From the NCBI RefSeq assembly GCF_030915465.1, contig NZ_CP133267.1, forward strand, positions 4,763,001 to 4,827,000: DNA of 64,000 nucleotides, read 5' to 3'. The first letter of the stretch is position 1; each line of letters starts with the position of its first letter. Origin of the DNA: Neobacillus sp. PS3-34. Lineage in GTDB: Bacteria; Bacillota; Bacilli; Bacillales; Cytobacillaceae. A program made the position numbers and the translations under genes. Under the pieces are notes generated by a model, which did not search any database, had not been told where the DNA came from, and worked only from the letters and a program-made list of their open reading frames with translations. Shown here piece by piece: positions 11,332-31,926 of the stretch.

Positions 11332-11346
11332 ATTAAAACCTCCCTA

Positions 11347-12449: not shown

Positions 12450-12481
12450 CAAAAAACGGCAGATTTTTTAATCTGCCGTTT
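12450..12481 (-). terminator. terminator of the McrC remnant
   Basis: An 11-bp perfect stem (AAACGGCAGAT with its complement) followed on the minus strand by six T. It lies about 130 bases after the stop of the McrC fragment. Confidence 0.65.
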
Positions 12482-12612
12482 CATTGCGCTATATGTGTAA
12501 TCTGTCAATGTGACTGGCATCTTTAATGAAACATTAAAGACAATATGTCCTTTACTTTGCGTAAGGATACCCAAGAAGAATTATGGGGCTGCTTTTAATT
12601 TAGGTCGGTGCG

Positions 12613-13858: not shown

Positions 13859-14010
13859 GTAATTGAGGAAATAGTTTCTGTTATACAAAAGGCAAAGGAG
13901 GATTCTTAATAATCCCTTGGCTTAAATTCTTTTGTACCATTCATAAATTAAAAAATAATAAAAAAGATAATCTACATTACTAATAACAAATGGTAAATTA
14001 AAATTGAGAA

Positions 14011-14031
14011 AAGCACTCTTGATGAGTGCTT
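14011..14031 (-). terminator. terminator of the putative restriction gene
   Basis: AAGCACTC / GAGTGCTT, eight-base perfect stem with a five-base loop, about 50 bases after the stop of the 573-aa gene; the minus strand then reads TTCTC. Confidence 0.5.
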
Positions 14032-14082
14032 AAAAAATTCAAAAAGCATTTGATTTTTTATTTATGCATTAATTTATAGGAC

Positions 14083-15804
14083 TTATCCTAGCTGATATTC
14101 TGAAGTTAATTTTATGGTAGACCACCCGTGCTCTTGTCCGCGGCTAAATTTTACACGAAGGCTAATTGTATCAAGGTCATCATTCCATGCTAAAGTATTT
14201 TGAATGGCGGATGGTGTTTTTGAGTAAACACTAACTATACTGTCAATTTTTGAATGCTCTTTGCAATAACTTACACAATCTTCATAAAAGGTAACAGCCA
14301 TCATTGCCTTACCTAAAAGATTCTCAATTCCTTGCTTCAATTGTTCCTGTGTTGCCAAATTAAGTTGCATTCCTAGCTCCTCTGAGAGAACCTCAAGACT
14401 TCCCTTATGGCTCAATTCCCCGTTTTCATATCTAGATTTCACTTCATTAACAGTTGGAATCATACTTCCAACATTAAAAAATGTTGGTCCTAATATTGTA
14501 CCTATACCTGGATTTTTAGTGGTAATTTTACTGCTCTTTTTTGCAAGTGCCTTTAGAGAAATGTTTTCCACAATATAAGCATCATTCACTTTTAAGATTA
14601 ATTGCAGATCACCTGTATTAAGTCTATCGCTTATATAGCTATCTGGAACCAACTCAATACTTTCCATAGTGTAGTCTTCATATTTTTCATTTAACTTCTC
14701 TTTAATTGCTGTATAAATTGTAGATGTAGATTTGAATAATTTTTTTAGCACTTCGGATTTTACTAGAGAATAATATTTTTGCAACAATAGTACACATTCA
14801 TGAGTTTCTACTTGAGAGATTCCTGGATATTCCTTAATAAAGTAGTAGTAGGAAATGGCTTCATGGCATTTCCCAATTGCATTGCTACTATTTACAGTTT
14901 GATTATATTCATGAGCATGTAATAAATCATTCATTTTTTGAATGGTACTGCTATTTATATTTTCTTTTTCATGTAGATCCGGGAATGTATCATAACTTGC
15001 TGCTAGTTTTATTGAGGAAATTGGACCGCTTTCAAATTTGAATCGCAACGTTAAGGCAATTTTACCAAATCTTATTCCCACTGTATTTTTTCCGGATTTA
15101 TATATTTGAATATCACTAAAATTAGGTGTCCCGGGATTAAAGTTTTCAACACTAACATTATTTTCATTTTCTCCGTAGCTTGTAATTATATTTACATCTT
15201 CAGTCATAAAAAAGGCATTAAAAGCATGAAAAAAACCCTCAGCCTTCTCATTGTAAAAGTCCTTTATCAGGGCAAAATATGATTCACGCAATTTATATAA
15301 AAACTTATCCCTACAAGGATTAATTATTTCAGTAAACCTAGGAAAATAGCTCGATACTAATTTCTTTAATTCCTTTTTATCTGAAAAGTAATGTGTCCCT
15401 TCCCTAACTTCCACGAGTTCTTTCAAGAACACCAAGTAATTTTTTTCGAAAAGTATATTAAATTCGGTCTGTAGTTGATCTGATAAAAAATATTTTTTTA
15501 AAAAACTTTTTGCCCCAGGATTTTTCGGCTGTATCCGTCCTCCTTTTTTTATTAAGAAGAGGTTTATTTTCACTAATTTGTTATTGGTTAGATGCAGCGT
15601 AAGATCTTTTTCCTGGTCCGGATGTTTAGAATCAAATTTCGATGTAACAAACTCTATATTTTTATATAGATTTGTTATGTAATTTACAGTTTCAAGAATT
15701 GTACTAGGATAATAATCAATAGGTTGTTTTTGTGTAAATTGCAATAATGCTTGGTGAACGGATTTAACATGGTCATCACCAATAAGTCTAGGTTTTTTTT
15801 TCAT
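14083..15804 (-). CDS. putative type II restriction endonuclease partner of the adjacent m5C methyltransferase
   Basis: A 573-residue soluble protein I cannot place by family. It is divergent from a cytosine-5 methyltransferase, the classic layout of a type II restriction-modification pair. A possible PD-(D/E)XK core is seen near residues 398-415: GDLQLILKVND, then YIVENISLKA, that is D followed about 12 residues later by E-x-x-x-K. It is followed by KNPGIGTILGPTFF; a related KNPGAKSFLKKYF occurs near residue 94. Length is on the large side for a type II enzyme. The frame is open throughout, so the enzyme may be active. Role inferred from position and motif only; specificity unknown. Confidence 0.6.
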   Translation of the reverse strand: MKKKPRLIGDDHVKSVHQALLQFTQKQPIDYYPSTILETVNYITNLYKNIEFVTSKFDSKHPDQEKDLTLHLTNNKLVKINLFLIKKGGRIQPKNPGAKSFLKKYFLSDQLQTEFNILFEKNYLVFLKELVEVREGTHYFSDKKELKKLVSSYFPRFTEIINPCRDKFLYKLRESYFALIKDFYNEKAEGFFHAFNAFFMTEDVNIITSYGENENNVSVENFNPGTPNFSDIQIYKSGKNTVGIRFGKIALTLRFKFESGPISSIKLAASYDTFPDLHEKENINSSTIQKMNDLLHAHEYNQTVNSSNAIGKCHEAISYYYFIKEYPGISQVETHECVLLLQKYYSLVKSEVLKKLFKSTSTIYTAIKEKLNEKYEDYTMESIELVPDSYISDRLNTGDLQLILKVNDAYIVENISLKALAKKSSKITTKNPGIGTILGPTFFNVGSMIPTVNEVKSRYENGELSHKGSLEVLSEELGMQLNLATQEQLKQGIENLLGKAMMAVTFYEDCVSYCKEHSKIDSIVSVYSKTPSAIQNTLAWNDDLDTISLRVKFSRGQEHGWSTIKLTSEYQLG

Positions 15805-15938
15805 GTTCCACCTCTTCCTTAATATACCATATCTTTACTTTACTTAGCTAATTAATGAGGTATAAGAGAAAAAACTGGCCAACTTGTCCAAGAAATGATA
15901 AAATAACATTATATCATCTCTTGGGAGGTATCAAGATA

Positions 15939-17189
15939 GTGAAAGTTGAAGAAAGAGGACGAGCAAAATACCGCCCCTTAAAAGATTACGATTCCAAACA
16001 GGTTAAGCAATTGCTACTGGATAAAATACAGGAAGAAGAAAAAATGATAAAGAATATCGAAAACGATTATGCATTGCCAAAGCTTGATTATCGTGAAGAT
16101 AAAATAAATGTAATCAGTCTTTTCTCAGGTTGTGGTGGCCTTGATTTAGGAGTCGAACTAGCAGGATTATCTGCTGCCATTGGAGAAAAAATGGTCAATA
16201 AAGCTTTTAATGAAAAAGATTTGTTTAATGCTGTAAGAGGCGATAGTATATTTCATACAGTCTATTCCAATGATCTTTTCAAAGAAGCTAATGAATCTTA
16301 TAAAATAAATTTCCCTTCAGTTTTCCAGCAACAGTTAGATATACGCAAAGTAAAGACTTTTCCTAAAGCGGATTTAGTCCTTGGCGGTTTCCCTTGCCCA
16401 GGCTTTAGCGAAGCTGGTCCACGATTAATTGATGATGAAAGAAATTTCCTTTATATCCATTTTATACGTTGTCTGCTTCAAGCAAAACCGTTTGCATTTA
16501 TTGCTGAAAATGTTAAAGGGATGATGACTTTAGGAAAAGGCGAAGTAATAAATCAAATTGTTCAAGATTTTTCTTCTGCAGGATACAATGTAAAATTCAA
16601 ATTAGTTAATGCACGAGATTTTGGAGTACCTCAACTTAGAGAACGAGTATTTATTGTTGGAATAAGAGAAGACTTAGATTTTAATTATGAACATCCGGAG
16701 CCAACACATGGAGAAGGAAAACTACCTTATGTAACGTTAAAAGAAGCTATTGGAGACTTAGAAACCTCCCCTGGAGAGTGGTTTGAGGGTGGATTTTCCC
16801 CAATATACTTATCTCGTAACAGAAAAAAAAGATGGGACGAGCAAAGTTTTACCATTCAAGCTTCAGGTAGACAAGCACCGCTGCATCCTAGCGGTCCGGG
16901 AATGGTGAAAATAGAAGCTGATAAGTGGGATCTCCCAGGAGATGAATCCTTACATCGCCGTTTGTCTGTAAAAGAAATTGCTCGCATACAAACTTTTCCA
17001 GATTGGTTTGAATTCTCTAATGGAGGTAATATGAGTGTCCAGAAAAATAATAGGTTGGACAAGCAGTATAAACAGATCGGGAATGCCGTCCCTGTTATGT
17101 TGGCAAAGGCAATTGCAATGCCACTCGCAATTTGGGCAACAAATAACATTAGCATAATTAAACAGAAGCACGCCGCTATCATAAGATAA
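15939..17189 (+). CDS. DNA (cytosine-5-)-methyltransferase
   Basis: About 416 residues with all key m5C methyltransferase motifs in order: I (LFSGCGGLDLG, near residue 62), IV with the catalytic cysteine (GGFPCPGFSEAG, C153), VI (FIAENVKGM), VIII (FGVPQLRERVFIVG) and X (QIGNAVPVMLAKAIA). It transfers methyl from S-adenosylmethionine to cytosine C5 in a target sequence that cannot be read from the protein. I start it at GTG 15939, ten bases after a GGGAGG site; an upstream in-frame ATG at 15855 lacks one. It is divergent from the 573-aa putative restriction gene and 2 kb from a dead vsr, so this is the modification half of a restriction-modification system. Confidence 0.95.
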   Translation: MKVEERGRAKYRPLKDYDSKQVKQLLLDKIQEEEKMIKNIENDYALPKLDYREDKINVISLFSGCGGLDLGVELAGLSAAIGEKMVNKAFNEKDLFNAVRGDSIFHTVYSNDLFKEANESYKINFPSVFQQQLDIRKVKTFPKADLVLGGFPCPGFSEAGPRLIDDERNFLYIHFIRCLLQAKPFAFIAENVKGMMTLGKGEVINQIVQDFSSAGYNVKFKLVNARDFGVPQLRERVFIVGIREDLDFNYEHPEPTHGEGKLPYVTLKEAIGDLETSPGEWFEGGFSPIYLSRNRKKRWDEQSFTIQASGRQAPLHPSGPGMVKIEADKWDLPGDESLHRRLSVKEIARIQTFPDWFEFSNGGNMSVQKNNRLDKQYKQIGNAVPVMLAKAIAMPLAIWATNNISIIKQKHAAIIR

Positions 17190-17305
17190 CATTTTATAAA
17201 CCTTTCCATTATCAAGGTTAGGTTTCAGAGTGACGACAAAAAGTATTACGAATTAGCCCATTTCGGATGCCTTTTGCCATATTAATATACATTGATTTTT
17301 AACCA

Positions 17306-17329
17306 GACCTCTCCGAGGTCGTTTTTTTT
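17306..17329 (+). terminator. terminator of the methyltransferase gene
   Basis: GACCTC/GAGGTC stem with a three-base loop followed by G and eight T on the plus strand. Confidence 0.8.
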
Positions 17330-17334
17330 GCAAT

Positions 17335-17778
17335 TTATGGACTTACCCAAGTCCTTAAATTGCAATTTTTTTTTAGGTTCATAGCAACAAAAATTAAGCA
17401 TCGCCTGCATGGACAAAGGTCCCTTAAAGGACTTGATTTGAACCATAAATTAGTGAAATGTTCTACATATGAATTAGAAACGGAACTCTCTTCGATAAAA
17501 TGAAAGTATACTTCTGAATAAGTATTAAGAATTTTAACCGTTTCACCATTACCTATGTTACTTTTTTTAGGATGCTTTACAACAGCCCAGGCAACTTGCG
17601 TTGAAGTAAAGTTAACAGTACTCTCCGTAATAGAAGCATTAACAACAACAATAATGAATTTATCATGTATTATATTGGACCTATATCTTCGCTCCATTTG
17701 TACAATGTTATAAAGAAATTTTTTTATGGCCTGAATTCTTACTCCTTGTGCTTGGTTTGAAGCTCGGGTTTGCTTCAA
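17335..17778 (-). CDS. hypothetical protein or gene remnant (147 aa)
   Basis: An open frame from a TTG start with no ribosome binding site. The middle (NIIHDKFIIVVVNASITEST ... NILNTYSEV-like region) has the composition of a real protein, but the last 30 residues are cysteine- and arginine-rich and look like noise, so the original stop may have been lost. I do not recognise it. It lies between the methyltransferase terminator and the helicase operon. Confidence 0.3.
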   Translation of the reverse strand: MKQTRASNQAQGVRIQAIKKFLYNIVQMERRYRSNIIHDKFIIVVVNASITESTVNFTSTQVAWAVVKHPKKSNIGNGETVKILNTYSEVYFHFIEESSVSNSYVEHFTNLWFKSSPLRDLCPCRRCLIFVAMNLKKNCNLRTWVSP

Positions 17779-18134
17779 AAATTTGCATACTGTTTGTTTA
17801 GTTTTGGTTTAGTCTTGCTCATTAGTCACGTTTTATCACAAATAAATCATTTCATTTTTTCTTCATAAAAGAATACTGTTGTGCCAGTTTATAATAAATA
17901 TTCTATTTATTACTTTTTATTGACCATCGTTCATAATCTCACCTTTTATTGTAAGCATTAAGATAATTATAATGTTGGATAAATTAGAAAAGAAGCATAT
18001 GTACTGGTATTTTATAGATAGATGATTATAAAGAAATCATTAACAGTTTCAATTTGCAGGTACTTTAATAAATTTTCTATGCTTAAAATAGCGGAATTAT
18101 CTTTTGATTTTTTCATAATTACTTTATCTCGAGC
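17779..18134. other. AT-rich gap
   Basis: No convincing gene. A 66-codon plus-strand frame at 18022-18222 runs through the operon terminator and into the nuclease gene and is judged to be chance. Confidence 0.4.
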
Positions 18135-18172
18135 AAAAAACCCGAATTGCTTCTATATGCGAATTCGGGTTT
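18135..18172 (-). terminator. terminator of the helicase-nuclease operon
   Basis: AACCCGAATT and its complement form a long stem (loop about 12 bases), followed on the minus strand by six T. It is about 25 bases after the last gene of the operon. Confidence 0.8.
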
Positions 18173-18195
18173 GCCTTTTTACGTTTGAGAATTCT

Positions 18196-19302
18196 TTAGA
18201 AAATATTATCTCTCCAAATTAGGGTCTTCGGTGATGGCTGGGTTATTAAATATTCTTGGTTTTCTTGTTTTTTTATTAGATCAACTATCAAAATATTACT
18301 ATTAACAAAATCAGCTAGTTTCTCATCAAATCTTACCCTAATAACTTTGCATAGTTTTTTATCGGACAAAATAACTAACTCATAATTATCGTCAATTATA
18401 TTTATTCCAATTAATTTCCCCTTAATATGAAATGAATTGCAACTTAGTTCATCTTTAATTCCACTATCCCAAAATGGTTTACACATAAATTTAAATGGAC
18501 AATTTCCACATTGTACTTTCGAAGGTGAAGCCAGATAAAAAATGTTATCACATTCTGTTTCATCTATTTTATTATTAATTAATTCTAATGCCCTCAATGC
18601 TTTCAATGCCTCTTGTTCCGCTATATCTAGGTTTACTGTTTCTTCATAAATTTGATTGTCAGTATTTATTACTCGATAAATAACATTTTCACTTTGATAA
18701 ACAATCGAACAAACAAAAGAATAAATTAGCATCTGACTTGTTATTGTAGAAAATATATTTCCAGATTCATCGAATATCTTTCCTGTTTTATAGTCCTCAA
18801 TAACAATTTTATTATTAGATACATATATACGATCAGGACGTCCTTTCAATTTCCCATCAAAAATCTCTATATTTGTCTCCACTAATGTTAAATTAGAGGC
18901 TACTGGAATATGTGCCGATCGAGAAGCTACTAACCTTTTAGCCAAAATTTTCAATCGAGATAATCTTAAATAAAATCCTGGCCATTCTTCTATTGTTTGC
19001 CAGCTATACTTAAATAAACTTTGTTTTAACAAGGAAGAGCATCCTTCAAAATATAGATCTTTTATTTTCAATTCTATTTCATTATTATTTAGATGATCAA
19101 AATGACCTTTATTGATCTTCTCGATAATCTCATGGCTAACTATACCAATTAATGTCTTCGGTTGCCGATAAATAAATCGTTGGTATTCGCTCCTACTAAT
19201 AAGATAATTTTTTAATAAACATCCTGAGAATGAAAGGTATATCGATGGTGTAATATATTTAAGTTTATCCAAATTTGGAATTTGTGGTAATTCTAGAATC
19301 AT
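18196..19302 (-). CDS. Cas4/AddB-like PD-(D/E)XK nuclease with predicted Fe-S cluster
   Basis: A 368-residue nuclease. The RecB-family site is complete: H57 (GIVSHEII), D157 in GRPDRIY, E169-x-Y-K172 in IVIEDYKTG, and Q190 in SQMLIYSF. The four cysteines that staple the fold around a 4Fe-4S cluster in Cas4, AddB and Dna2 are all present: C28 near the N-terminus and C265, C268 and C274 after the active site (CGNCPFKFMC). A C-terminal beta-rich domain of about 80 residues follows (LIGINIIDDNYELVILSD). It is the last gene of a three-gene operon, 15 bases after the helicase. It likely resects or cuts DNA opened by the helicase. No cas genes are nearby, so it is not a spacer-acquisition Cas4. Confidence 0.85.
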   Translation of the reverse strand: MILELPQIPNLDKLKYITPSIYLSFSGCLLKNYLISRSEYQRFIYRQPKTLIGIVSHEIIEKINKGHFDHLNNNEIELKIKDLYFEGCSSLLKQSLFKYSWQTIEEWPGFYLRLSRLKILAKRLVASRSAHIPVASNLTLVETNIEIFDGKLKGRPDRIYVSNNKIVIEDYKTGKIFDESGNIFSTITSQMLIYSFVCSIVYQSENVIYRVINTDNQIYEETVNLDIAEQEALKALRALELINNKIDETECDNIFYLASPSKVQCGNCPFKFMCKPFWDSGIKDELSCNSFHIKGKLIGINIIDDNYELVILSDKKLCKVIRVRFDEKLADFVNSNILIVDLIKKQENQEYLITQPSPKTLIWRDNIF

Positions 19303-19317
19303 CCTAGCACCTTTTCT

Positions 19318-22300
19318 TTAAATTTCAATTGTAGTAGTGTCATGGATCTTTTTCATTACCCACATTGGTCTTCTTATCAAGTCAAAGAGATCAAAATGAA
19401 TAATTTGAAAGCCAGGTGATTCATATTCTGCTTCGGCTCTTGCTTCACTCAACATTTCATTCAAAAAGTCTGGGTCTTTATTCCATAGAGGATGACCAAA
19501 AATTATGATCTTTCTAATAATCGGCAAACTTATTGCAGGAATACCAGCATACCATTGTTGTTTTACACCTTCTAAATAATAATCTTTTTCAAGATTTGAA
19601 AGGCTTTTCTCCACCTGTGGTAGCCATTTTTGGTCAATTCTCGGAATAAAATTTTCATCTTTATAGATGGCAGCAATTTCAATAGCTAATCTCCAATCAA
19701 GTAAAGCATGGTAACCCCTATTTTCATATGTTCTCAGGCACTCGTAACAAGATGAATCACAATTATGGTTAATAAGTTTCGGCAAATAGCTCATGTTTTC
19801 AGTAATATCTTTTAGTATGCTTTTTATCATATATTCCTGAGCCAAATGCTTTGCATATCCTGCGCCATTTATTAATTGATCAGCAAAAAAGATCTGTCCA
19901 ACAATACGGTTTAGCTCCATGTCTTTGTACGCTCTTACTCCTACCTGCATTTCATTACCATCAACATCTAGTAAATTTGTTGCAACACGTCTGAAAAGGT
20001 AACCAAATGATATTAGAGCTGCCCTTACTGACAAATTTCCTGGATTCATATTTATTCCATTCTTAATCTTATTTGGAGATAAAACCAAAACATCAGTATT
20101 TTTAATTGAGCCAAGAGCAATATTTCTTACCTCAGTTGTTAACAGGCTTTCAAAATGCGGTTCATCTTTGAAGCTCTCTTCGATCCACCCATGAAAAGGA
20201 TTTCTTGATTTATAAAAATTAAACCCACTGCCGAAGTTATCATTTATTGAATAAATATTTCCTTCTTGACCATAAAATTTAGTATTATATGCAATCTTTT
20301 CTTCTTTATCGTTGCTTGCATCTTGGGCTAATTTAGGAAAAGAACTACCAGAAGTCCATTCAAATTGTTCATTAAAATCTTGTGGGAACCAGTCGGTCCT
20401 GAATCCTTTTGGTTCAGATATCGGTAAGGTTACAAATTCTGAGTTCAATTCATCTCTCTTGTCACCGCAAGATGGGCAGCTATCCACAAAATTTTCTTCC
20501 TTATCAAATAAGAAGTGACATTTTCTGCATAAAACAACTTTTTTTATGATTCCCATTGGATTGTTATCCGCTTCTATTGTATTTCCTCTGACCTTATAAT
20601 GAGATAACCCAACTATTCTATGCTTTAGTTTATCTTTGACAACCTCTGATCCAGGAGAATATTCACTAATTGCTAGCTCGATATCTCTATCAATTACGCC
20701 TTTTTGCAGGGTTCTAGCATTATGAGTTTGCTTTCTTTCTTGGTGGTGCAAATACCTCACTCTAGTCGGGAAACCAAACATCGGTAATAATCCTGCGGTG
20801 GCTAAATTCGTACTTAGATTTCTATCTGTATATCTGCTATCATTTGCAATATCGGTTATATCATCCACGACTTTGCCGGAAGTAATATACTCTTTACACA
20901 AAATCTTATCTTGCTCATTTATTTTCGTACGGTAGGTCAAAACATTTATTAAATCCTCGGTAAAATCAATATTTTTTGAGGAGCCTAAAAATCTCCTTAT
21001 TTGTTCTTTAATATTCTCCCAATCTTCTGTATACCCATACTGCCCATGTACACTAAACCCAGGTTTAATCTTATCTAATAGCCCTGTTCTAGAGAAGGCA
21101 TAGAAAAGAGATTCCTTTATTAATACTCTTTTAAAAATCTTTAATGACTTTAAATCAATATATGGTTGCGGAGGGGCATCTCCTGTCATTTTATCAAGGT
21201 TGTCAAAGTACCAGTCATCGTGACTCCTGCCTCTACATAAAGTCAAACTTATGGAGAGTGATGACCCCCTTCTTCCACATCGTCCTACTCGTTGTTGATA
21301 ATTAAATCTTTGAGGCGGCATATTTGACATAGAAACCATTTTTAAAGAACCAATATCTACCCCTGCTTCCATTGTTGTAGTAACACTAAGAATATCAATC
21401 TCATCTACTAATGGTAACGACGTTTTGTCAAAAATCCCTTGAAATGCTAATTGCCGATTCAAAGATTCATCTGCATCAGTTTGTCCCGTCATTTCTTCAC
21501 AATGGAACCGTCTAGCTGAGCGGCTATCTAAAGCGGAATACCGATAATAATCATCTTCAATAGTTTCCAGATTTGATTCCTCAACTTTTGAGCCACAATC
21601 CGTACAAGTTCCACATGAATTATGAAGATGTATTCTTTTACATTTCACACAAGAAAACACTTTTTCTCCTTGTAAATGAGGTATGATATAGATCTCATCG
21701 GGCTTAATTAAATATTTTTGTAGCCCTGTTAGTTGACTCATTGTTTTATGTGCCGCTTCAATGAATCTCTCTTCGTCAAGGTTATTGTGTTTGGCAACCG
21801 ACATCCAAAACTTTTTTAATTGTGGAGGTGTATTCTCCTTTTCCGCCCGATATTCATTTCCATAATAATACTTTAATCCACCAAGAATCCTTAACGAACT
21901 ATTAATGAGTTCCCTCCAGAAAACCTTATCTATCCCCATACTTTCATTCTCATAACTAACATCAGTAGTCATATGTGCCAAACCTAAAGATTCTAGGTCG
22001 CGTTTTCTCTGGGCAAAAAGGACATTAACTATGACGTTATCTTTTAACTCCTTAATAATAGTCTTCCTATAGATTATCTGATCATTATTCAATTCCTTAA
22101 CTATTGGTTTATTTTGTGACCAGTCATATAAAGACGTCCACTTTTCGTCATGGTTTAACTGTATTGACCTTTTAGGTCCTCCAGGATTTATTCCTAATCT
22201 TAATAATGCATATTCAAATGAATCCCATAGTTCTCCGAGTTTGGGAGGGAAATAAGCTTTGTCAACTTTACTCTGAATTTCAATTTTTAATGGCTCAGGC

Positions 22301-24918
22301 AAATGACTATTTTCAAGGAACATTCTTATCATAAAAGCATCTTGAGGATGTTCGTTTTCAAAGTTCTTTGCAAAATTGTCATCCAAAGGATTCAAGCTTA
22401 GACCCCTACACTTGCTAATAAATGCTCGCAATTCTTGATTAACTTCTTTAAAGGAGTTTACTACGATATACCTTAAAATTTCTCGATAGTGATTTAATTC
22501 AAGTTTTGCGGAAAGTTTTGCCGCATCCTGCCTGCTATCTGAGAATAAAACCGTTTTAGGTGTTCCATCCGTAGATAATTCCCTCATGATTGAATCCATC
22601 ATCACTTGCATGATCATATCAAAACCTGTTCGTTGTCCACGAATTGGTGAATTCATCCTTTTATTACTGTGGTGAGAGAATTTTTTATTTCCTTCCCAGT
22701 TATCTCCACAATGAGGACAACGTACAGAGAATGCCGAAATGTTGTCAACATAATCCTGGTCACAATTTTCAGGTCTTATTACATATCTAAATCCATTACT
22801 ATTTCCCAAGGATTCAGAATTGATTTTCCCTCCACTATGATTATAGTAGGCTCTTTCCCAAGCAAAGTTAACAGATAAACCTTTATGTGTTCCTGACCAT
22901 TTTCTTGCCTCGAGATCTACCTCTTTTCCCGGCCAAAAAACTTCATAATCTTTAAACATTTTAGTGGCCGGCAATTTATCGGGCAAGGAATCTAAATCAG
23001 GAAAATCAGGACTTAAGATATAACTATATCCATTGAAATCTGTTTGATCCAAATATTTATAGCCACCTAAAAATGAGTCTCCACAATTTTGGCAATAGTA
23101 AAAATCCAAAACTTTTGAGCCACAATCACATTGAATTCTTGGTTGTGAATAGAGTTTTCCTACTGTACGACCTTCAAACTGATACTGAGGTTCTATTGCT
23201 TCACAGGATGGATTAGAACAAGCCCATAATCCCTGGAAATTCCTAAAAAACAAGTGACTTCTTAAAGGTACTACCACTTGTCCACAATCTCTTGAATATG
23301 TAATCAATTTTAACAATCCAGCTATTGCTTCAATATTATTTTCCTCAAAAAGTGCATTGGCAATATCTTTAACTGAACGGGGCTTTTCGCAGAAATCTAT
23401 TAATGCTTTATAAACGCCTAACTCGTCAAGAACTTCGAATACTTGTTGACTCAGGTTTTTTTCGCTTTTAAAACTATTAACACTTTCCAGAAAATATTTA
23501 ATTGATTTTTCTTCATCTGATAAATCGGCTTTATAAAATTGAGAAAATAAATTTACCTTGTTTTTGAACTTAAAATTATTCTTATATTTCTCTGAACTTT
23601 CCCTTTGACCAGTGATTATTTCAAATTTATCACTCGAAATACCGAAAAAATCCTCTAAAAACACTTTTCCATCATTATCAATCGAGGCACTAGTTGCAAT
23701 TACTCTTAATTGAGGACTGTCAGGTTTTAAACCAATTCTATTTAAAAGGGTTTTTATAATGTAAGAAACTTCTGTTCCGGCCGTTCCCCTGTGAGCGTGC
23801 AACTCGTCAAGCACTAGATAAAATGTATTGTTTGTATCTTTCTCCAACCATTCACGCGTTTTTGTAAATATGTTTTGTTCAATTTGCCTAGTTAATACGA
23901 TGTTTAACATGCTAAAGTTCGTGATAAATATGTCTGGCGGAGCATCTTGCATATCCCACCTAGAAATCATTTCAGCACCAGAAGTTTTACTTAAGTAAGA
24001 TAACTTTTCATGTAATTTAATTAACAATTTTGATTTTATTTCATTAATTAAATCGGTATTCAATTCTTTCGATTCTTGAAGAGTAGTTTCATATTCTTTA
24101 AGTTCACTCGAAATAATTTCAATCATTTTACTATCCAAATTCTTACCGAGACTATTTGTTAGGTCGTGGTAGTAACTTCTTACGTCCTTTTCTTTTTCTG
24201 AGAGTTCTCCAATTATCTTTTTTAATTCACTCATCTTTTGAGTTGAAATTTCACCAGATACAGGTGATTTTCCAGTATATCTTCCAAAGTAAATTTTATT
24301 TCCATTTCTATTTTGTCTAAACCATTCTCTAGACTGATCACTATCTAATGCTTGACGTAAACGGACCAATTGGTCTTCAACCAATGCATTCAATGGATAT
24401 AGTATTAAACCTCTTATAGCCGCATCCCGTGTTTCAAGTTTACGTTTCGATTCCCAGCTTTGACCATTGTGCCCCAATGGTTCTTTCTGTATTTGTGGAC
24501 TCGGCCACTTTTTTGATTCTTGTAAAATTGATCCAATTACAGGTAAAAGGAAACTTTCAGTTTTTCCAGAGCCTGTACCCGAAGTAATTACTACATTTTT
24601 CTTATCTTTAATCGTAGATTTTATAGATTGGTATTGATGTGTATATAAATTTTGATTTGCACCAAAAAGACCGATCGAACTAAAACTAGAAAAATCTGAA
24701 CTGATGTTAACATCTTGAGATGCCTCTAAAACAGTTTTTCCTGAGCTTTGGTAAGGTGGAAGAACTTCAATATAAGGATATTGATATATTATCCCTTCCT
24801 TCTTTAAGAGATCGTTCCTCTCTGCTGCAAGTCTTTCTTCACCTAAAGCGAATGGACTATTCATATATCTTAAAAAAGTATCTCGCATGTTATTAAAAAT
24901 GCCCATTACGTCATCCAT
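19318..24918 (-). CDS. giant DEAD/DEAH helicase with zinc ribbons and DUF1998-type C-terminus (DruE/MrfA-like)
   Basis: An 1866-residue superfamily II helicase. Q-type region LYTHQYQSIK at 91, Walker A GTGSGKT at 114-120, a long insertion, motif II DELH at 371-374, motif III TSAS at 409-412, motif V GVDIGSLK near 1184 and motif VI QRVGRCGRRG near 1205. Between and after the RecA lobes are several four-cysteine ribbons (for example CSNPSCE with CDCG and CQNCG; CVKCK with CTDCG; CRKCH with CPSCG). The end has a DUF1998-like cluster, CDSSCYECLRTYENRGYHAL near 1720. DUF1998 helicases include MrfA and DruE of the Druantia defence system. ATG 24918 has a GGAGAG site. Middle gene of the operon; it probably drives DNA translocation for the nuclease. 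Confidence 0.88.
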   Translation of the reverse strand: MDDVMGIFNNMRDTFLRYMNSPFALGEERLAAERNDLLKKEGIIYQYPYIEVLPPYQSSGKTVLEASQDVNISSDFSSFSSIGLFGANQNLYTHQYQSIKSTIKDKKNVVITSGTGSGKTESFLLPVIGSILQESKKWPSPQIQKEPLGHNGQSWESKRKLETRDAAIRGLILYPLNALVEDQLVRLRQALDSDQSREWFRQNRNGNKIYFGRYTGKSPVSGEISTQKMSELKKIIGELSEKEKDVRSYYHDLTNSLGKNLDSKMIEIISSELKEYETTLQESKELNTDLINEIKSKLLIKLHEKLSYLSKTSGAEMISRWDMQDAPPDIFITNFSMLNIVLTRQIEQNIFTKTREWLEKDTNNTFYLVLDELHAHRGTAGTEVSYIIKTLLNRIGLKPDSPQLRVIATSASIDNDGKVFLEDFFGISSDKFEIITGQRESSEKYKNNFKFKNKVNLFSQFYKADLSDEEKSIKYFLESVNSFKSEKNLSQQVFEVLDELGVYKALIDFCEKPRSVKDIANALFEENNIEAIAGLLKLITYSRDCGQVVVPLRSHLFFRNFQGLWACSNPSCEAIEPQYQFEGRTVGKLYSQPRIQCDCGSKVLDFYYCQNCGDSFLGGYKYLDQTDFNGYSYILSPDFPDLDSLPDKLPATKMFKDYEVFWPGKEVDLEARKWSGTHKGLSVNFAWERAYYNHSGGKINSESLGNSNGFRYVIRPENCDQDYVDNISAFSVRCPHCGDNWEGNKKFSHHSNKRMNSPIRGQRTGFDMIMQVMMDSIMRELSTDGTPKTVLFSDSRQDAAKLSAKLELNHYREILRYIVVNSFKEVNQELRAFISKCRGLSLNPLDDNFAKNFENEHPQDAFMIRMFLENSHLPEPLKIEIQSKVDKAYFPPKLGELWDSFEYALLRLGINPGGPKRSIQLNHDEKWTSLYDWSQNKPIVKELNNDQIIYRKTIIKELKDNVIVNVLFAQRKRDLESLGLAHMTTDVSYENESMGIDKVFWRELINSSLRILGGLKYYYGNEYRAEKENTPPQLKKFWMSVAKHNNLDEERFIEAAHKTMSQLTGLQKYLIKPDEIYIIPHLQGEKVFSCVKCKRIHLHNSCGTCTDCGSKVEESNLETIEDDYYRYSALDSRSARRFHCEEMTGQTDADESLNRQLAFQGIFDKTSLPLVDEIDILSVTTTMEAGVDIGSLKMVSMSNMPPQRFNYQQRVGRCGRRGSSLSISLTLCRGRSHDDWYFDNLDKMTGDAPPQPYIDLKSLKIFKRVLIKESLFYAFSRTGLLDKIKPGFSVHGQYGYTEDWENIKEQIRRFLGSSKNIDFTEDLINVLTYRTKINEQDKILCKEYITSGKVVDDITDIANDSRYTDRNLSTNLATAGLLPMFGFPTRVRYLHHQERKQTHNARTLQKGVIDRDIELAISEYSPGSEVVKDKLKHRIVGLSHYKVRGNTIEADNNPMGIIKKVVLCRKCHFLFDKEENFVDSCPSCGDKRDELNSEFVTLPISEPKGFRTDWFPQDFNEQFEWTSGSSFPKLAQDASNDKEEKIAYNTKFYGQEGNIYSINDNFGSGFNFYKSRNPFHGWIEESFKDEPHFESLLTTEVRNIALGSIKNTDVLVLSPNKIKNGINMNPGNLSVRAALISFGYLFRRVATNLLDVDGNEMQVGVRAYKDMELNRIVGQIFFADQLINGAGYAKHLAQEYMIKSILKDITENMSYLPKLINHNCDSSCYECLRTYENRGYHALLDWRLAIEIAAIYKDENFIPRIDQKWLPQVEKSLSNLEKDYYLEGVKQQWYAGIPAISLPIIRKIIIFGHPLWNKDPDFLNEMLSEARAEAEYESPGFQIIHFDLFDLIRRPMWVMKKIHDTTTIEI

Positions 24919-24938
24919 GAATCTTTCTCTCCTTACTA

Positions 24939-27641
24939 TTAAATCTCTGATGGTGGATAGCCGAGCTTATATAAGATCATCAATGCGACTTCTAACGGTA
25001 CATTTTTATAATTTAGATATTTTCCTATTTTAATAGGAGAAGTTCCTGAACACATTGTTAAGACTCTTTCATATAATTCTGGCAATTGATAGTCAGCCCT
25101 GACTTTAAAATTATAGGAAGTATAAGAAAATATATTTACAGAATTATTCACTGCAATAAAAATTTTGCCTTGAGTTGCTGTTACTTTCTTTGCAGAAGTA
25201 TTTCTTTTCAATATATATTGACTGATCCCTAATTTGTTTGTAATTCTAACGAATTTAGAATTATACTTTTCTTTCCATTTATTTTCGTGTATATCCCAAC
25301 CTTCTGATTTCCAGTTAATATATTCGTCTAAATCGACCGATTTGGAGCTCTCAATTGTCTCATTTATAGATGGGATACTAGAAGCTAAATCATATGCTAA
25401 ATATTCATAAGATTGAATAAGCCTTATTCTCCTTGTAGCTATTTCTTTCTCTAGCTCATTTTTACTTTTTGATTCTAAATATATAGAAATTGGCTCGTAT
25501 TCTGAATCAGGAATATAAAATTGATATCGAGATGAAGTATTAACAGAATGTCTTATCCACTCTCCGATTTGACCATATAATCTTGAACCTGAAATAAAAA
25601 CAATACGATCATGTTCCTTGCATGGAAGATTACTTGCTGATGTAGGAGTAACCCACCAAGAAAAATCTCCACCATTTTTGTACTCTACTTCGATAAACCC
25701 TAAACGTAAAAGGTTTCTTAGAATTTTATTAAATACCGTTTCGTCTTTAAAAAGTTCAGCAACCCCATTTGTGAACGCTTTCTGATTTCCTTTCTTCAAG
25801 ATGCTTAGATATTCCACAAACTCATCTATCTTTCGCCACTTAAGTTCACTTAGAGATATTCCGACTTCTGAAAATTTTCTTGAATATGGCCAAGAGTCCT
25901 TAATTTCATTTGGGACTTCTAACTCAAAGGCACTTTTTTTGTAAATCAGATAAATCCTATTATGGCTAGAATAATTTATGGTTAATAGATTTTCACTTTC
26001 AGAAAAATCAACCCCGTTAATCTTAAAATTTAATGGATGGATTTTATAAAAATTATTCATTCCAAGATCAAAACTTTGTTTATCTGCTAAATGTAACTTA
26101 TGATTATAGTTATCTACAGATAAATTAACTGGACCAGGTCCTAAATCGTAATTTTTTAAATCTATTTCCATAGGACTTTCTAATATAGAAAATGATGAAT
26201 CATCCAATCCATTAATCTTTACAAGAGAAGCTCTTGGTGCAAAAATTGTTAATTTAGGTGGGTAAGTTGCTAACCAAATTTTGTTTTCAATTTTTAATCC
26301 GCCTTTAGCCTTTACATTGACAACTTTCTTCTCTTTGAATTCTATATCATCTATTACTAAATTTTTTATTTTGCTTTTAGTTAGGATCAAAATAATTGAC
26401 CAACCACTCAATAAAGTATCTTTGAAGGATGTTAATATTACAGCATTTTTATTGATCCAGTCATCAAGATTACCCTTTAATCCCGTTTTAAATAATATTA
26501 TATGTTTTTCATTTTTTGATATCGTCTCTTTGCTTATCCATCCAAAAAGCCCTAAATAATCTGCATTCCTAAAAATATAAAGAGGGCTATTTTTATATGA
26601 AAGCTTTATATTGTTTTTTGTTAGTGTTTTATTTATTGGTAATAAAAGCTCACTCGAATTTTTAACGATTCTAAACAGAAAATTATTTCTAAAATCAAAA
26701 CCTGATAACTCCTCAGGAAAACTAAGTATATCTTGCTCAAGTTCTGCAATCTGCTTTAGATCTAAATTCTGTGGGCTTAATCTTCCTTTAAATTGAAGAA
26801 ATAACTTTAGGTCTACGCTTTTACGTCTAATTTTCCCACTGGTTATTTTCTCACTTTTAACTTTAGGATCTTCTAAATTTACCTTCTTGATATCACTTAG
26901 CCAATCATTATACTCTGAGTGTATCAAGGTAACAAAATGTTCTTGTGCTTCCGGGTGTTTGTAGAAAAAACGTTTTAATCTACTTTCACTTCTTTGAAAA
27001 AGAAGTTCGATATCATATTTAATAACGTTCTTATCTACTACTTCTTTTTTATGATAACCACATTCACGAAAGTGCTGATATAATAAATGTCTGTCAGTTT
27101 CCCTAATTAAGCATTGAGAACGTGGAAGACCTGCGAATTTTGATCCCAACGGAAAAGAAGGAGTATATCCAAATCTGTTGTTATTTTCCTGTTGCCATTC
27201 ATATAGTTTACTCCACATATTTATTGTATTCTCAAAATATGGAGGCTTTCCTATTCCACTAAAACCCAGAACTTCTCTTAATCTGAAATAATAATTATTT
27301 ACTCCTACACCTTCATTTTGATCTGCTTCCATCTTTGAAGCAGCATACACACAAAGGCATAACAAACCAATAAAAGGAGGTATCTTGTCTTTGCGATTAT
27401 TCCACCAGCGATCAGTGAGTACATGCAAATCTCTAAATAGGTTAGAATTAATTGGGGAAAAGTGAGAAACACTTTTACAGAATGAACCGATTGCATCTGC
27501 CTCCCCCATATCCAAGTTCATTCCTACTTCAGTAATTACCTTCTTATTAACAAATAAATAGACAATTTTATCCTTAGTAGCATCATTGAAAAAATATTTA
27601 AAAAGTGCCTCATTCCATTTATGATAATTCTGCAAACCCAA
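24939..27641 (-). CDS. unknown 900-aa protein, first gene of the helicase-nuclease operon
   Basis: I do not recognise this 900-residue soluble protein. The first 280 residues are helical and rich in W, Y and H (NYHKWNEALFKYFF; DRWWNNRKDKIPPFIGLL; HFRECGYHKKEVV). Residues about 330-620 look beta-rich with repeated short strands, and a further helical/beta region ends in YKLGYPPSEI. No Walker motif, zinc cluster or catalytic triad was found. It begins at a TTG at 27641 behind AAAAGGGA. Only 20 bases separate it from the helicase, so it is very likely a subunit, perhaps for recognition or regulation; in Druantia type III a large uncharacterised protein (DruH) also accompanies DruE, but I see no basis for calling them homologous. 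Confidence 0.8.
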   Translation of the reverse strand: MGLQNYHKWNEALFKYFFNDATKDKIVYLFVNKKVITEVGMNLDMGEADAIGSFCKSVSHFSPINSNLFRDLHVLTDRWWNNRKDKIPPFIGLLCLCVYAASKMEADQNEGVGVNNYYFRLREVLGFSGIGKPPYFENTINMWSKLYEWQQENNNRFGYTPSFPLGSKFAGLPRSQCLIRETDRHLLYQHFRECGYHKKEVVDKNVIKYDIELLFQRSESRLKRFFYKHPEAQEHFVTLIHSEYNDWLSDIKKVNLEDPKVKSEKITSGKIRRKSVDLKLFLQFKGRLSPQNLDLKQIAELEQDILSFPEELSGFDFRNNFLFRIVKNSSELLLPINKTLTKNNIKLSYKNSPLYIFRNADYLGLFGWISKETISKNEKHIILFKTGLKGNLDDWINKNAVILTSFKDTLLSGWSIILILTKSKIKNLVIDDIEFKEKKVVNVKAKGGLKIENKIWLATYPPKLTIFAPRASLVKINGLDDSSFSILESPMEIDLKNYDLGPGPVNLSVDNYNHKLHLADKQSFDLGMNNFYKIHPLNFKINGVDFSESENLLTINYSSHNRIYLIYKKSAFELEVPNEIKDSWPYSRKFSEVGISLSELKWRKIDEFVEYLSILKKGNQKAFTNGVAELFKDETVFNKILRNLLRLGFIEVEYKNGGDFSWWVTPTSASNLPCKEHDRIVFISGSRLYGQIGEWIRHSVNTSSRYQFYIPDSEYEPISIYLESKSKNELEKEIATRRIRLIQSYEYLAYDLASSIPSINETIESSKSVDLDEYINWKSEGWDIHENKWKEKYNSKFVRITNKLGISQYILKRNTSAKKVTATQGKIFIAVNNSVNIFSYTSYNFKVRADYQLPELYERVLTMCSGTSPIKIGKYLNYKNVPLEVALMILYKLGYPPSEI

Positions 27642-27978: not shown

Positions 27979-28593
27979 TTATTTAACTGTTACTAAAAAA
28001 TTTAATGTTGATATATCATTAATAAAGTTCATAGGTGGGTATGTTGCACCATAATCAGTATTATCTAAAACAATATAGTATGTACCTTGTTCAACTTGTT
28101 GAGTTTTAGAACTTGCAGAAAGTCCAAATGTTGATAATTCTGTATTATAAAAAACTTCTTCCCCTATTCCATTTTTCATAATATTTTGCCATTTTTCGTA
28201 TTGAGAAGATTCCATAAAATAAACATCAAGGTTTGTCCCTGATAAAATATTGTATTCTATGGTTACTTCCCCAGACTTCTTCATTTCAACCGGAAAGGCT
28301 CTATATTGATCTTCTTGAATTTGCATTTCTTCGTCATATAATGTAGTTGGTTGGTTTGTTACAAAATTAATAGCATTAGATACTTTACTTTTATCATTTT
28401 CTGTAAGATTTGAATATATACTATAACCCCCAACAATAAAAAAGGCTAACAGTGTTATGGAAATAAACCTTTTTATTCTTGAAATATTATTTTCTGTTTC
28501 AACTTCCTCTTCAATTGGACATCCACAATTAATACAAACATCAGCTTTATCTGATATTTGACTGCCACAATCCTTGCAGTTAATTAGTGCCAT
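27979..28593 (-). CDS. zinc-ribbon membrane-anchored protein (204 aa)
   Basis: The N-terminus is a zinc ribbon of the zinc_ribbon_2 type with two CxxC pairs (CKDCG at 6 and CINCGC at 21). A transmembrane helix follows (ITLLAFFIVGGYSIYSNL, about 46-64), then an extracytoplasmic beta-rich domain of 130 residues (VTIEYNILSGTNLDVYFM ... QQVEQGTYYIVLDNTDYG) that resembles the pre-peptidase C-terminal fold, often seen as a binding domain. A strong AGGGGGAA site precedes ATG 28593. It lies between the helicase operon and a divergent KAP NTPase; no functional link is shown. Similar zinc-ribbon plus single-TM proteins occur widely in bacilli with no assigned role. Confidence 0.75.
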   Translation of the reverse strand: MALINCKDCGSQISDKADVCINCGCPIEEEVETENNISRIKRFISITLLAFFIVGGYSIYSNLTENDKSKVSNAINFVTNQPTTLYDEEMQIQEDQYRAFPVEMKKSGEVTIEYNILSGTNLDVYFMESSQYEKWQNIMKNGIGEEVFYNTELSTFGLSASSKTQQVEQGTYYIVLDNTDYGATYPPMNFINDISTLNFLVTVK

Positions 28594-28959
28594 AAGATTC
28601 CCCCTATTTAGCTTTGCCTATGATCTTATTATAGCAAACAACGGAAAGTTCAAAATATAAAAAATAGGAGTTCCATTTCTTAATAAATGAAAACGGATCA
28701 TAAAAATTAATCTATATACTTTAATTAAATATTAATAACAAACAAAATGACTAAATCTAATTTACAACCAACGTTACAATGTGCTTACGCTCAAATATTT
28801 TATCTATAATTGGATGTAAATAGCATTTAAAAAAGATCCATTTTTAACTCAAGATAATAACTTCAAATTTTGATTGAATATAAAATATTTTTTAATTAGA
28901 ATAATTGTAATTCTAATTTTTAACAAGTTAGTAAAATATTATTGAGAAGGTGTAGTTTC
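28594..28959. other. divergent intergenic region, very AT-rich
   Basis: About 365 bases of roughly 20-25% GC between two divergent genes. It must hold both promoters, but many TATAAT-like hexamers occur by composition and none can be singled out. No RNA or repeat was recognised. Confidence 0.4.
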
Positions 28960-31926
28960 ATGAGAAGCAATGTAATTGAAGAAACTCTAACAAATAATAT
29001 ACTTTTACATATTGATCCAGTAGAAATGGAAAGTTTTCACGTTAAAATTGAAGATATAGATAAATTAATTGAGTCTACAAAACTTCTTATTCGATTAAAG
29101 GAGAATTCTTGTAAGGTAAATGAAGTACTATTATTTTGTTTAGAAAATTTCAAATTGTATTCTAAAATATATGAAACTCTGCCTGGAAAAAAAGGGGTTC
29201 AAGACTCCATTCAATATGAAAAAGTAATCTCCCCAATTAAGAAAACTATTATAAGGAATATAGAAATTATTAATAATATGCTCTCTCATTTATTTAGTGA
29301 TTATTATGTTACAGTAGCATTTGAGACAGGTAGGGTCCACAAAATACCTTATATAGGATTATTCAATAAAAGAATAACATCCTCTTCCCAAACAGGCTTT
29401 TATACAGTTGTTTTTTTCGATATTTATAAAAAAAATTTATATTTATCTCTTAATATAGGTAATAATAAAACAAATGTAATTAATTTTAATGAGATTAAAA
29501 GGTTTTTAATTAAAAATATAAATCTAACACATTTTAATAATTCTGATTCACTAGAAGAATTAAAACCCTTAATTAGACCTAAAACAGAACATTATTTAAC
29601 AGGTAATATTGTTGGAACAAAGGTACATTTAATTGAATTAATAAAATCGGATTATGATATTGAAAAATTAATTAACAGCTATTTATTTGAGACTGATCGG
29701 CTTGTACAACTATTTCTAACCACATACCCTTCAAAAACATACGATGTTTTTATTGAGCCATCATATATTGAAAACTATGAAACTTACAATACCTATGAGT
29801 ACTGTAATGTTGGCAGCTGTAATAATTTAGCTAACTTTGCGGTTTTCCTATATGATAAAAATCCTAACGGCGAAGAATTTTTAGAGCATGATTTTACATG
29901 TAGTTATATATGTGAACCTCATATGGTAGAAAACGAAAGCAGTTGCAAAGAAGAAAGAATTGCTCGAAGTTTACTCTCATATAAATATACTAATAGGGAT
30001 AGTAGGCATGGATATTCAAAGTATTTATCCTTGGGATTAGAAGAACCCCTTAAATTAAAAATACTTTCTGAGTTAAGTAATGATGATTTCCTTGAAGTTT
30101 CAAAAGATGTTGAAGTTTTTTATGAATTATTAACGCAAGATGATTTAGAATTGCCTTTAAATATTGGAATTTTTGGTGACTGGGGGTCCGGAAAAAGTTT
30201 CTTTATAAACCAATTAATAAAAAAGCTAAAAGATGATAATTCTGAACCTAATAATATTGTCGTTGAATTTAATGCTTGGAATTATTACGATTCAAACATT
30301 ATAGTAAATTTAATATATAAAATATTTGAGGATATTCAAATAAATTATGATCTGAATTCCGGAGATTTTTTGAAAAATTTCAATCATTATGAAGCCTTTA
30401 CGGAAAAACAAAATAAAAAAGAACGGGAAGAAATATATAATAATATTAATGAATTAAAAAACGAAAATAAAAAAATACATTCTATTATTCAAGATAAAAT
30501 ATTAAAGGATATTAAAATTCCTAAAAAAATAGAACTAGAAAATATTAAAAAATACACTAATTTAAACACTTTAACAAGAATAAATATAATGGTTTCAAAT
30601 ATTTTTAAAGAACGCAAGAGATATTTTTTTTATCTTCCAATTTTATTTATAATAGGATTAATGAGAATTGTGGGTTTGAGTAAGCTTTCTATAATCCCTG
30701 GTGCAATTGGATTAATAGCATTAGTAAAACCAATAATAAATATATTAAAAATAATTAATAATTACCTCGAGGAGATAAATAAAATAGAGACTATTAATGG
30801 ACAGATTACAGAATTAGAAGAAAAACTTGAAAATCTAAGTGTTAAAAATAAAAAACAATTAACATTAAATTATTTAAAAGATTTTATTATAGAAAAAATA
30901 AATCATCAAGGATACAAAAATAACTTAGGCTTTATAGCCACAGTAAACAATGACATTAAAGAATTACGAAAGACCCTAAATGAAATAAGCAATAGTATTA
31001 AGAAAGATAAAGATATAGATTTGCCTCCAATAAACAAAATTATACTGATAATTGAAGACCTAGATAGATGCTCTGAAGAAAAAGTGGTTGATGTCCTTCA
31101 ATCAATTCAATTACTACTATCTACAGACTTGTTTGTTGTTATTTTTGCAGTTGATAGCCAATGGATTAACAAATGTATTATTAGTCAGTATAACAAAATG
31201 ATTACCAATTCAAATACTGAGCAAGGTAATTTATTCGCTATTAATTATCTAGAAAAAATTATTCATCTTCCTTTCTGGTTAAGAAAAATGAATAAAGCTA
31301 GTTCAAATAATTTTATACATCAAATTAGTAATTCATTTAAATCCGGTTCATTAAATAAAAACAATCCTGATGAAATAAATAAATCATCTCATGAACCAGA
31401 GAAGCGTGATAATATATATACTGTAACTAATAGAAAGCCTGAAAGAAATCCACCTGACTCTCGTAAATATGTAATTGATGAAAGATTTCATTACATTGAA
31501 CAAGAAGATTTAATAATATTAAGTGATTTAGATTTTATATTTGAAAATACTAGCCCTAGAAAGACAAAGAGATTTTTAAATACACTGTTGTTGATTAAAA
31601 ACGGCAATCTAGATCAAGTATTTAATTGCAGTAATAAACTCTTGTATTTTATTGTTTCCAGCATAGTTTTACAGTCCGATTATACGTGTGATTTTTATAA
31701 GATGGTTATAAATAAAATTAATAATAATACCAAAAACAGGGAATTTTTTATAAATGAAATTAATAATTTTGAAAATATAACAAATTCACAACAAGCAAAA
31801 CTATTTTGGGAAAGGTATAAAAATCTTTTAAATGAATTTGATGATGTGGAGTTTAATAATATAGATGAAATTATATATGAAGTCTCAAGATATACATATT
31901 TTCACCATGAAATTACTAAATTGTAA
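28960..31926 (+). CDS. KAP-family P-loop NTPase
   Basis: About 988 residues. An N-terminal region of 400 residues includes a four-cysteine patch (CNVGSCNN ... CSYIC, about 285-325) that may bind zinc. The KAP NTPase domain starts with Walker A FGDWGSGKS (about 405) and has Walker B ILIIEDLDRCSEE (about 695) followed by VFAVD-like IFAVDSQWI. Between them are two membrane helices (about 555-600), the insertion typical of KAP proteins. These membrane ATPases often belong to phage-defence or abortive-infection loci. I start at ATG 28960 with an AAGGTG site eight bases upstream. It is a lone gene of about 25% GC, lower than its neighbours, suggesting recent arrival. Confidence 0.9.
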   Translation: MRSNVIEETLTNNILLHIDPVEMESFHVKIEDIDKLIESTKLLIRLKENSCKVNEVLLFCLENFKLYSKIYETLPGKKGVQDSIQYEKVISPIKKTIIRNIEIINNMLSHLFSDYYVTVAFETGRVHKIPYIGLFNKRITSSSQTGFYTVVFFDIYKKNLYLSLNIGNNKTNVINFNEIKRFLIKNINLTHFNNSDSLEELKPLIRPKTEHYLTGNIVGTKVHLIELIKSDYDIEKLINSYLFETDRLVQLFLTTYPSKTYDVFIEPSYIENYETYNTYEYCNVGSCNNLANFAVFLYDKNPNGEEFLEHDFTCSYICEPHMVENESSCKEERIARSLLSYKYTNRDSRHGYSKYLSLGLEEPLKLKILSELSNDDFLEVSKDVEVFYELLTQDDLELPLNIGIFGDWGSGKSFFINQLIKKLKDDNSEPNNIVVEFNAWNYYDSNIIVNLIYKIFEDIQINYDLNSGDFLKNFNHYEAFTEKQNKKEREEIYNNINELKNENKKIHSIIQDKILKDIKIPKKIELENIKKYTNLNTLTRINIMVSNIFKERKRYFFYLPILFIIGLMRIVGLSKLSIIPGAIGLIALVKPIINILKIINNYLEEINKIETINGQITELEEKLENLSVKNKKQLTLNYLKDFIIEKINHQGYKNNLGFIATVNNDIKELRKTLNEISNSIKKDKDIDLPPINKIILIIEDLDRCSEEKVVDVLQSIQLLLSTDLFVVIFAVDSQWINKCIISQYNKMITNSNTEQGNLFAINYLEKIIHLPFWLRKMNKASSNNFIHQISNSFKSGSLNKNNPDEINKSSHEPEKRDNIYTVTNRKPERNPPDSRKYVIDERFHYIEQEDLIILSDLDFIFENTSPRKTKRFLNTLLLIKNGNLDQVFNCSNKLLYFIVSSIVLQSDYTCDFYKMVINKINNNTKNREFFINEINNFENITNSQQAKLFWERYKNLLNEFDDVEFNNIDEIIYEVSRYTYFHHEITKL

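Follow-up and report, generated by a model that had tools for sequence, protein, structure and literature searches.

A probable Druantia type IV-like operon with druF and druL joined in one gene in Neobacillus sp. PS3-34

In this study, which was based on a 64,000-nucleotide stretch of the Neobacillus sp. PS3-34 genome (contig NZ_CP133267.1, positions 4,763,001 to 4,827,000; hereafter the window, within which all of the positions are counted) and on a survey of related loci, we analysed a three-gene operon that is probably best explained as an antiphage operon similar to Druantia type IV, with druF and druL as one gene; we propose a sensor-helicase-nuclease mechanism for it. The genome is a single 4.9 Mb contig. 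Three minus-strand open reading frames (ORFs) fill positions 18196-27641 and encode, in the order of transcription, products of 900, 1866 and 368 amino acids (aa). The druF-druL fusion gene (24939..27641, start codon TTG) is followed after 20 bases (24919-24938) by druE (19318..24918), which encodes a superfamily 2 (SF2) helicase of the YprA/MrfA family, and, after a further 15 bases (19303-19317), by druK (18196..19302), which encodes a PD-(D/E)XK nuclease of the Cas4/AddB type with four conserved cysteines. An intrinsic terminator on the same strand, with a 10-bp stem and a T-run, lies 3' of druK (approximately 18135..18171; -18.7 kcal/mol, z -4.0); a pattern scan missed it because its loop exceeds the length that the scan allows. 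The ORF coordinates and the stem with its T-run confirm the spacing and the single terminator given in an earlier note on this DNA, which was made from the sequence alone and which saw in the three genes a trio without a name among the known defence systems. The latter claim did not survive, because DruE, DruF with DruL, and DruK are all represented in PADLOC-DB; the novelty against named systems is largely refuted, although the 900-aa and 368-aa proteins match clearly rather than strongly. Judged by these matches, the operon is a variant of the known Druantia that has two of its usual proteins fused, and no new system. The antiphage function that the note predicted is likely, and its pointer to Druantia was right.

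Compared with the PADLOC models, the 1866-aa protein matched DruE4 with 1719.4 bits over residues 2-1861, i.e., over its full length, and the scores for DruE2 (1589.6 bits), DruE1 (782.1 bits) and DruE3 (423.3 bits) were lower. The DruE4 score is far above those of the DrmA and DpdJ models; the DrmA match was local only (44.5 bits), and, among the matches listed for the 17 window ORFs that were scanned, the BrxH models matched DruE alone (32.7 bits). The helicase motifs are intact, i.e., the Walker A motif SGTGSGKT at residues 113-120 (24559..24582), DELH at 371-374 (23797..23808) and motif VI, QRVGRCGR, at 1209-1216 (21271..21294), all on the minus strand, and together with eight CxxC sites they bear out the helicase description in the note. 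Its DUF1998-like end was upheld as regards the DUF1998-type helicase, while the zinc-binding MZB/DUF1998 region (residues 1640-1728; 19735..20001, minus strand) reached 24.1 bits with the Pfam MZB model, just under the cut-off of 24.2; the only Pfam families above the cut-off across the operon were DEAD, Helicase_C and PDDEXK_1. Moreover, a profile of 40 DruE rows aligned with PDB entry 9wae_A over residues 3-1865 (E 3.4e-300), and this full-length relative of DruE has six more PDB entries; YprA (6znp) was also among the matches. In the open-licence literature, to which all of our literature searches refer, no paper was found on five entries of the 9wae series or on the type III entry codes. 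The closest named relatives listed belong to Priestia, Paenibacillus, Bacillus, Neobacillus and similar genera (45-58% identity), and the median DruE length in 85 surveyed frames was approximately 1856 residues. The alignment of the window DruE with the type III DruE of E. coli (2114 aa) stops at residue 1746 of 1866 in the former and 1729 of 2114 in the latter, which leaves 120 residues against 385; by this alignment, most of the C-terminal tail of the type III DruE is missing from the window protein. The HKD pattern of PLD nucleases occurred in none of 86 frames, and this absence carries no weight because the type III DruE, which served as the control, itself escapes the pattern; a looser pattern, which matched two to six of the 86 frames as well as the control, was discarded as evidence.

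The 900-aa protein had been described as having no recognisable motifs. This stands for Pfam, NCBIfam (over the cut-off) and PHROGs, none of which gave a match, and fails for PADLOC, whose DruF4 model matched residues 5-466 (1.7e-33, 114.1 bits) and whose DruL4 model matched residues 605-887 (2.2e-14). The two-part composition was recovered using hhalign: an alignment of seven fused proteins matched 28 split DruF proteins over columns 11-589 (6-586 of 685; 1.7e-43) and 28 split DruL proteins over columns 617-917 (7-303 of 314; 1.1e-29), and the final 100 or so positions of the long DruF had no counterpart in the fusion. Along the minus strand, the DruF part (residues 3-511; 26109..27635), in which the helical region at 1-266 is followed by a beta-rich region at 274-520 with a possible immunoglobulin (Ig)-like sandwich at approximately 439-519, is joined by a partly disordered connector (residues 512-604; 25830..26108; predicted local distance difference test values below 50 at 525-550) to the DruL part (residues 605-898; 24948..25829), which begins with a winged-helix-like region at approximately 603-686. 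From the models, the fusion is likely to be a recognition subunit with helical, Ig-like and winged-helix parts. A database search with the 900-aa protein found it alone among 7996 scored candidates, and a search with the fused alignment, in which relatives from the fetched loci were part of the query, found at least four proteins, which is a lower bound. A database protein of 936 aa (P0122) is a further DruF-DruL fusion.

The reading of the 368-aa product as a PD-(D/E)XK nuclease with Cas4/AddB-like cysteines was correct except in the active site, which is not of the E-x-K form: the acid before the lysine is D170 (D-Y-K172), with D found in 19 and K in 20 of 21 sequences, the window protein included. 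PADLOC assigned the protein to DruK (8.7e-16) and more weakly to Cas4, Pfam PDDEXK_1 matched with 44.8 bits, and weak matches were AddA/Cas4-like. C28, H57, E142, D157, D170, K172, Q190, Y194, C265, C268 and C274 are each conserved in 19-21 of the 21 sequences, a pattern by which the active site is judged to be a complete RecB/Cas4-like site with four cysteines. The DruK profile was built without L006, where the gene is a methylase, and without the doubtful L015, L039 and L083. The name DruK, which comes from PADLOC-DB, is absent from the main text of PMC8565338.

The survey comprised 86 loci, i.e., the window, six loci from viral contigs and 79 loci obtained from the best 80 of 560 confirmed genome stretches in a search with the 40 DruE rows; L090 was added from another genome. 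A DruF and/or DruL frame was seen by profile in 81 of the 86 loci and by a six-frame search in two more (L028 and L054), while in the remaining three (L042, L055 and L057) DruE stands at the contig start and the upstream DNA is missing. DruF and/or DruL consequently accompany DruE in all 83 loci with upstream DNA, and in 70 of the 86 loci the DruF/DruL frame ends within 250 bases of DruE. The expectation in the note that the three genes travel together is borne out for this pair and fails for the nuclease, because DruK follows DruE in just 25 of the 75 loci that have 1200 bases or more downstream (three of the 25, L010, L032 and L080, being partial or in pieces). In L003 and L090, the same three genes stand in the same order as in the window, and DruK was not found in the other members of the same DruE clade (L004, L005, L006 and L012). 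Neither did 10 kb of DNA downstream of the DruE frame of L046 (9821-15364) hold a DruK match; this locus has a second very long frame (19501-25158, 1885 aa) downstream of its Druantia operon. Because DruK is optional, a nuclease step cannot be general. The genes after DruE in the loci that lack DruK vary: among 19 such ORFs, 10 of which were scanned with Pfam, we found AAA_21, HATPase, UvrD, PIN_8 and DUF4268 once each, a sub-threshold P-loop in L085 and four without a match; the 19 include the second piece of DruE itself (L060) and a methylase (L006).

In most loci, DruF and DruL are split. They share one frame in 10 of the 86 (the window, L003, L004, L005, L006, L012, L047, L060, L077 and L087) and in L090, which makes 11 fused loci. 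The DruE clade of the window consists of seven rows (the window, L003, L004, L005, L006, L012 and L090), all of which are fused; five of the six other fusions in it were aligned and were 30-31% identical to the window protein. Fusion also occurs in three other lineages of the DruE tree. On a FastTree phylogeny of 86 frames, the distribution of the fusion needs four changes, and the starred branches force four; the number was the same when the tree was repeated without five doubtful rows, L042, L046, L078, L083 and L084. The 86-frame tree held one wrong frame (L046) and excluded L060, whose DruE lies in two frames, and the trees counted L057 and L055 (and in one of them L042) as unfused despite the missing upstream DNA; one of the events is less sure because L057, the sister of L077, lacks that DNA. 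The tree cannot tell fusion from splitting.

Among 57 split pairs, which include partial frames such as those of L015, L041, L065 and L070, the druF and druL frames overlap in 42 and abut in four (46 of 57) when the first possible starts are taken, a convention by which the overlaps are overstated. The fusions in several lineages, together with the overlapping or touching split frames, suggest that DruF and DruL form one unit. In 42 of these pairs, DruF has a tail of 100 residues or more beyond its core, and in 11 DruL has an N-terminal extension of at least 100 residues; none had both and four had neither. We considered the extension as a relocated DruF tail, given that the two never co-occur, and rejected this because they share no profile similarity; since all 11 loci fall into one DruE clade, the long-DruL pattern is one event and is positional only. 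L056 is split, with DruL in a 1033-aa frame and DruF in another frame. Two tandem DruF-like genes precede DruL in L021, L032, L058 and L073 and, weakly, in L015. On L087, a contig from a viral collection (4200-21617), a serine-recombinase-like gene (identified by eye), a fused DruF-DruL gene, DruE, DruK and a C5 methylase were observed, and in L090 the Druantia operon has neighbours (16653-18946) that are TnsB-like (136.6 bits) and, weakly, TnsC-like.

According to PMC8565338, type IV Druantia was defined by DruE and DruF with DruL replacing DruM and DruG, and 168 instances were counted in 11 phyla. This definition is computational and leaves DruL without an assigned role, and a natural fusion says that DruF and DruL work together. 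No experimental or antiphage study of type IV was found, and the literature, as far as its text was accessible, yielded no mention of a DruF-DruL fusion. The window operon resembles type IV in having full-length DruE4, DruF4 and DruL4 counterparts and no DruM inside, and differs from it in that DruF and DruL are one protein and that a C5-cytosine methyltransferase (C5 methylase) gene lies approximately 1 kb from druK.

That methylase is central to another explanation, in which the operon is a degenerate or hybrid type II Druantia (type II consists of DruM, DruF, DruG and DruE) with a fused DruF, DruE, the nearby C5 methylase as its DruM, DruG lost and DruK added; we consider this doubtful, although several observations favour it. 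Two long PADLOC DruF2 models, of 1011 and 1030 positions, share the fused layout; L060 matches PDLC00023 over 2-1027, and its residues 775-1030 also match DruL4. By these matches, at least some type II DruF already appears to contain DruL, for which no statement was found in the accessible literature; therefore types II and IV look closer than their names suggest. The DruF2 score on the window fusion (107.8 bits) nearly equals that of DruF4, the DruE2 score is high as well (1590 bits), and the methylase, which is encoded on the plus strand (15855..17189) convergently with druK and is the sole PF00145 match in the genome (235 bits), has DruM2 as its best PADLOC model (408.1 bits). A C5 methylase also occurs within 10 kb of DruE in all seven members of the window clade (the window, L003 to L006, L012 and L090), compared with 22 of the 49 other loci whose flank measures 15 kb or more (32 of the 80 others overall); the enrichment (one-sided hypergeometric 0.0067) is post hoc and concerns one clade, and the methylase profile was built from six of the seven clade loci. 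However, DruE speaks against the type II reading, as it fits DruE4 better (1719 bits), and no DruG was found among the matches listed for the three operon genes and 14 other window ORFs that were scanned, with 28 further window ORFs of at least 120 aa lying outside that scan. The methylase stands outside the operon and head-to-head with a type II restriction endonuclease gene (14083..15804, minus strand; PADLOC REase_II, 796.1 bits over 1-572), and may also be the M of a type II restriction-modification (R-M) pair, and the best methylase models differ between the clade members. In L069 (Metabacillus litoralis, 1-25282), where druF and druL are split, a similar pair accompanies the type IV operon; the restriction enzyme, the methylase and a NERD-UvrD protein of the window have relatives around it that score 451, 602 and 1189 bits, respectively. 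Additionally, type II is not uniformly fused because the remaining DruF2 models are short (676-693 positions).

The note had likened the operon to type III Druantia (DruH and DruE), for which there was no sequence support: no DruH was found among the matches listed for the operon genes, and hhalign showed no sequence similarity between DruF-DruL and the E. coli DruH, by which we rejected DruF-DruL as a distant DruH. The missing of DruH from the structure listings has no bearing on this kinship; PDB entry 9tud is named DruH, and 9tu7, the helicase of the 9tud series, is taken to be the type III DruE. The window operon and type III share a YprA-family DruE and, as a loose parallel, a helical and Ig-like partner, whereas the C-terminal tail of DruE is longer in type III and contains PLD domains (PMC13192584). 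In E. coli S1-NGR-02-A (L093, 5001-15373), an IS3 element lies inside the DruH (STY4851 family) region, and the remainder is a single 8280-base frame which, judged by length and alignment, seems to cover both DruH and helicase parts. DISARM (DrmA, DrmB and DrmC) also has an SF2 helicase and DUF1998; in the window, by contrast, the helicase and the DUF1998 region are in one protein and the nuclease is of the PD-(D/E)XK and not the PLD type, and neither DrmB nor DrmC was among the matches listed for the operon genes. A helicase-nuclease operon for DNA repair, similar to MrfAB or AddAB, would agree with the YprA-family helicase, with YprA among the PDB matches and with the weak AddA/Cas4-like matches of DruK, and is nevertheless quite improbable in view of the score for DruE4, of neighbours that comprise R-M, NERD-UvrD and KAP-ATPase genes and of the patchy distribution. 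DruE was found at E 1e-150 in two of 398 sampled genomes of the class, and the 900-aa protein was matched in two of 398 sampled genomes of the phylum, the own genome being included in both cases and the second match of the latter being weak; the own genome holds one full-length DruE and, apart from it, a single frame with two short and weak matches. Seven plasmid records matched the 900-aa protein partially, none above 80%, 21 held 80% of DruE, all at less than 60% identity, and two phage records had partial DruE matches. Least credible of all is a truly new three-gene system; it would suit a 900-aa protein that lacks Pfam and PHROGs matches and finds only itself, and the silence of the accessible literature on the fusion and DruK, but all three proteins match named Druantia models and the order DruF, DruL, DruE, DruK is common in the split form.

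How the type IV-like operon might act can be proposed from type III, whose DruE unwinds 3'-tailed DNA, cleaves long DNA and has two C-terminal PLD domains, and whose DruH is the likely sensor (PMC13192584, a preprint); the DruE of types I and II ends in an inactivated Vsr-like domain (Bell et al., PMC12458937). The DruF-DruL protein, which by analogy may hold the role of DruH, would recognise an infection signal or a DNA structure and then activate or load DruE. Similar to its type III relative, DruE would track on 3'-ended single-stranded DNA and open phage replication or recombination intermediates, and DruK would substitute for the nuclease tail of the type III DruE by cutting the exposed strands; it is presumably the cutter because the window DruE appears to end before that tail. 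The nearby C5 methylase may mark self DNA. Several observations weigh against this interpretation. In Foldseek, neither the 900-aa model nor the DruL model had a structural match that reached E 0.001, the VIA Z values for these models were at most 7.0, and hhalign gave no sequence link to the type III sensor. DruK is present in a minority of the loci, and in three of the seven members of the window clade. The type III studies themselves disagree: no stable DruH-DruE complex was seen in PMC13192584, while in PMC13316683 binding between DruH and DruE is reported as essential, with a phage tail protein as the activator of the pair. We infer the sensor role, the loading and the self-marking, and no functional data on type IV were found.

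The fusion links types II and IV and provides a compact three-gene set with a sensor, a helicase and a separate nuclease. With DruK as a protein of its own, sensing, unwinding and cutting could be dissected, which is harder in type III because helicase and nuclease are one protein there. More tentatively, DruF and DruL might be the halves of one recognition subunit, whether split or fused, and types II and IV might be one machine, in which DruF-DruL would be the sensor and DruE the translocase, with an exchangeable effector slot following druE (occupied by DruK in a third of the loci) and a nearby C5 methylase that marks self DNA.

The surroundings of the operon look like a defence island, and a functional tie between the methylase and the operon is possible. 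A protein with a NERD nuclease and a UvrD helicase is encoded at 6682-8634; in L012 and L069, close relatives of it (1189-1214 bits) are found in the vicinity of Druantia. The opposite strand upstream of the operon encodes a KAP-family P-loop ATPase of 994 aa (28942-31926) that includes an MrcB_N-like region and is QatA-like with 93 bits, far under the family cut-off. The gene just before the operon (27979-28593) encodes a 204-aa protein whose N-terminal zinc-ribbon match lies below the threshold and which, judged by eye, has a membrane helix; no relative of it was found at E 1e-5 in the fetched loci. A DndB-like protein (PF14072, 72.7 bits) is encoded at 36250-37377, and no other dnd genes were among the matches listed for the window ORFs that were scanned. 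At 41717-45138, the gene for a 650-aa protein with a sub-threshold beta-propeller match is separated by two bases from that for a trypsin-like protease with an SbsC-like domain.

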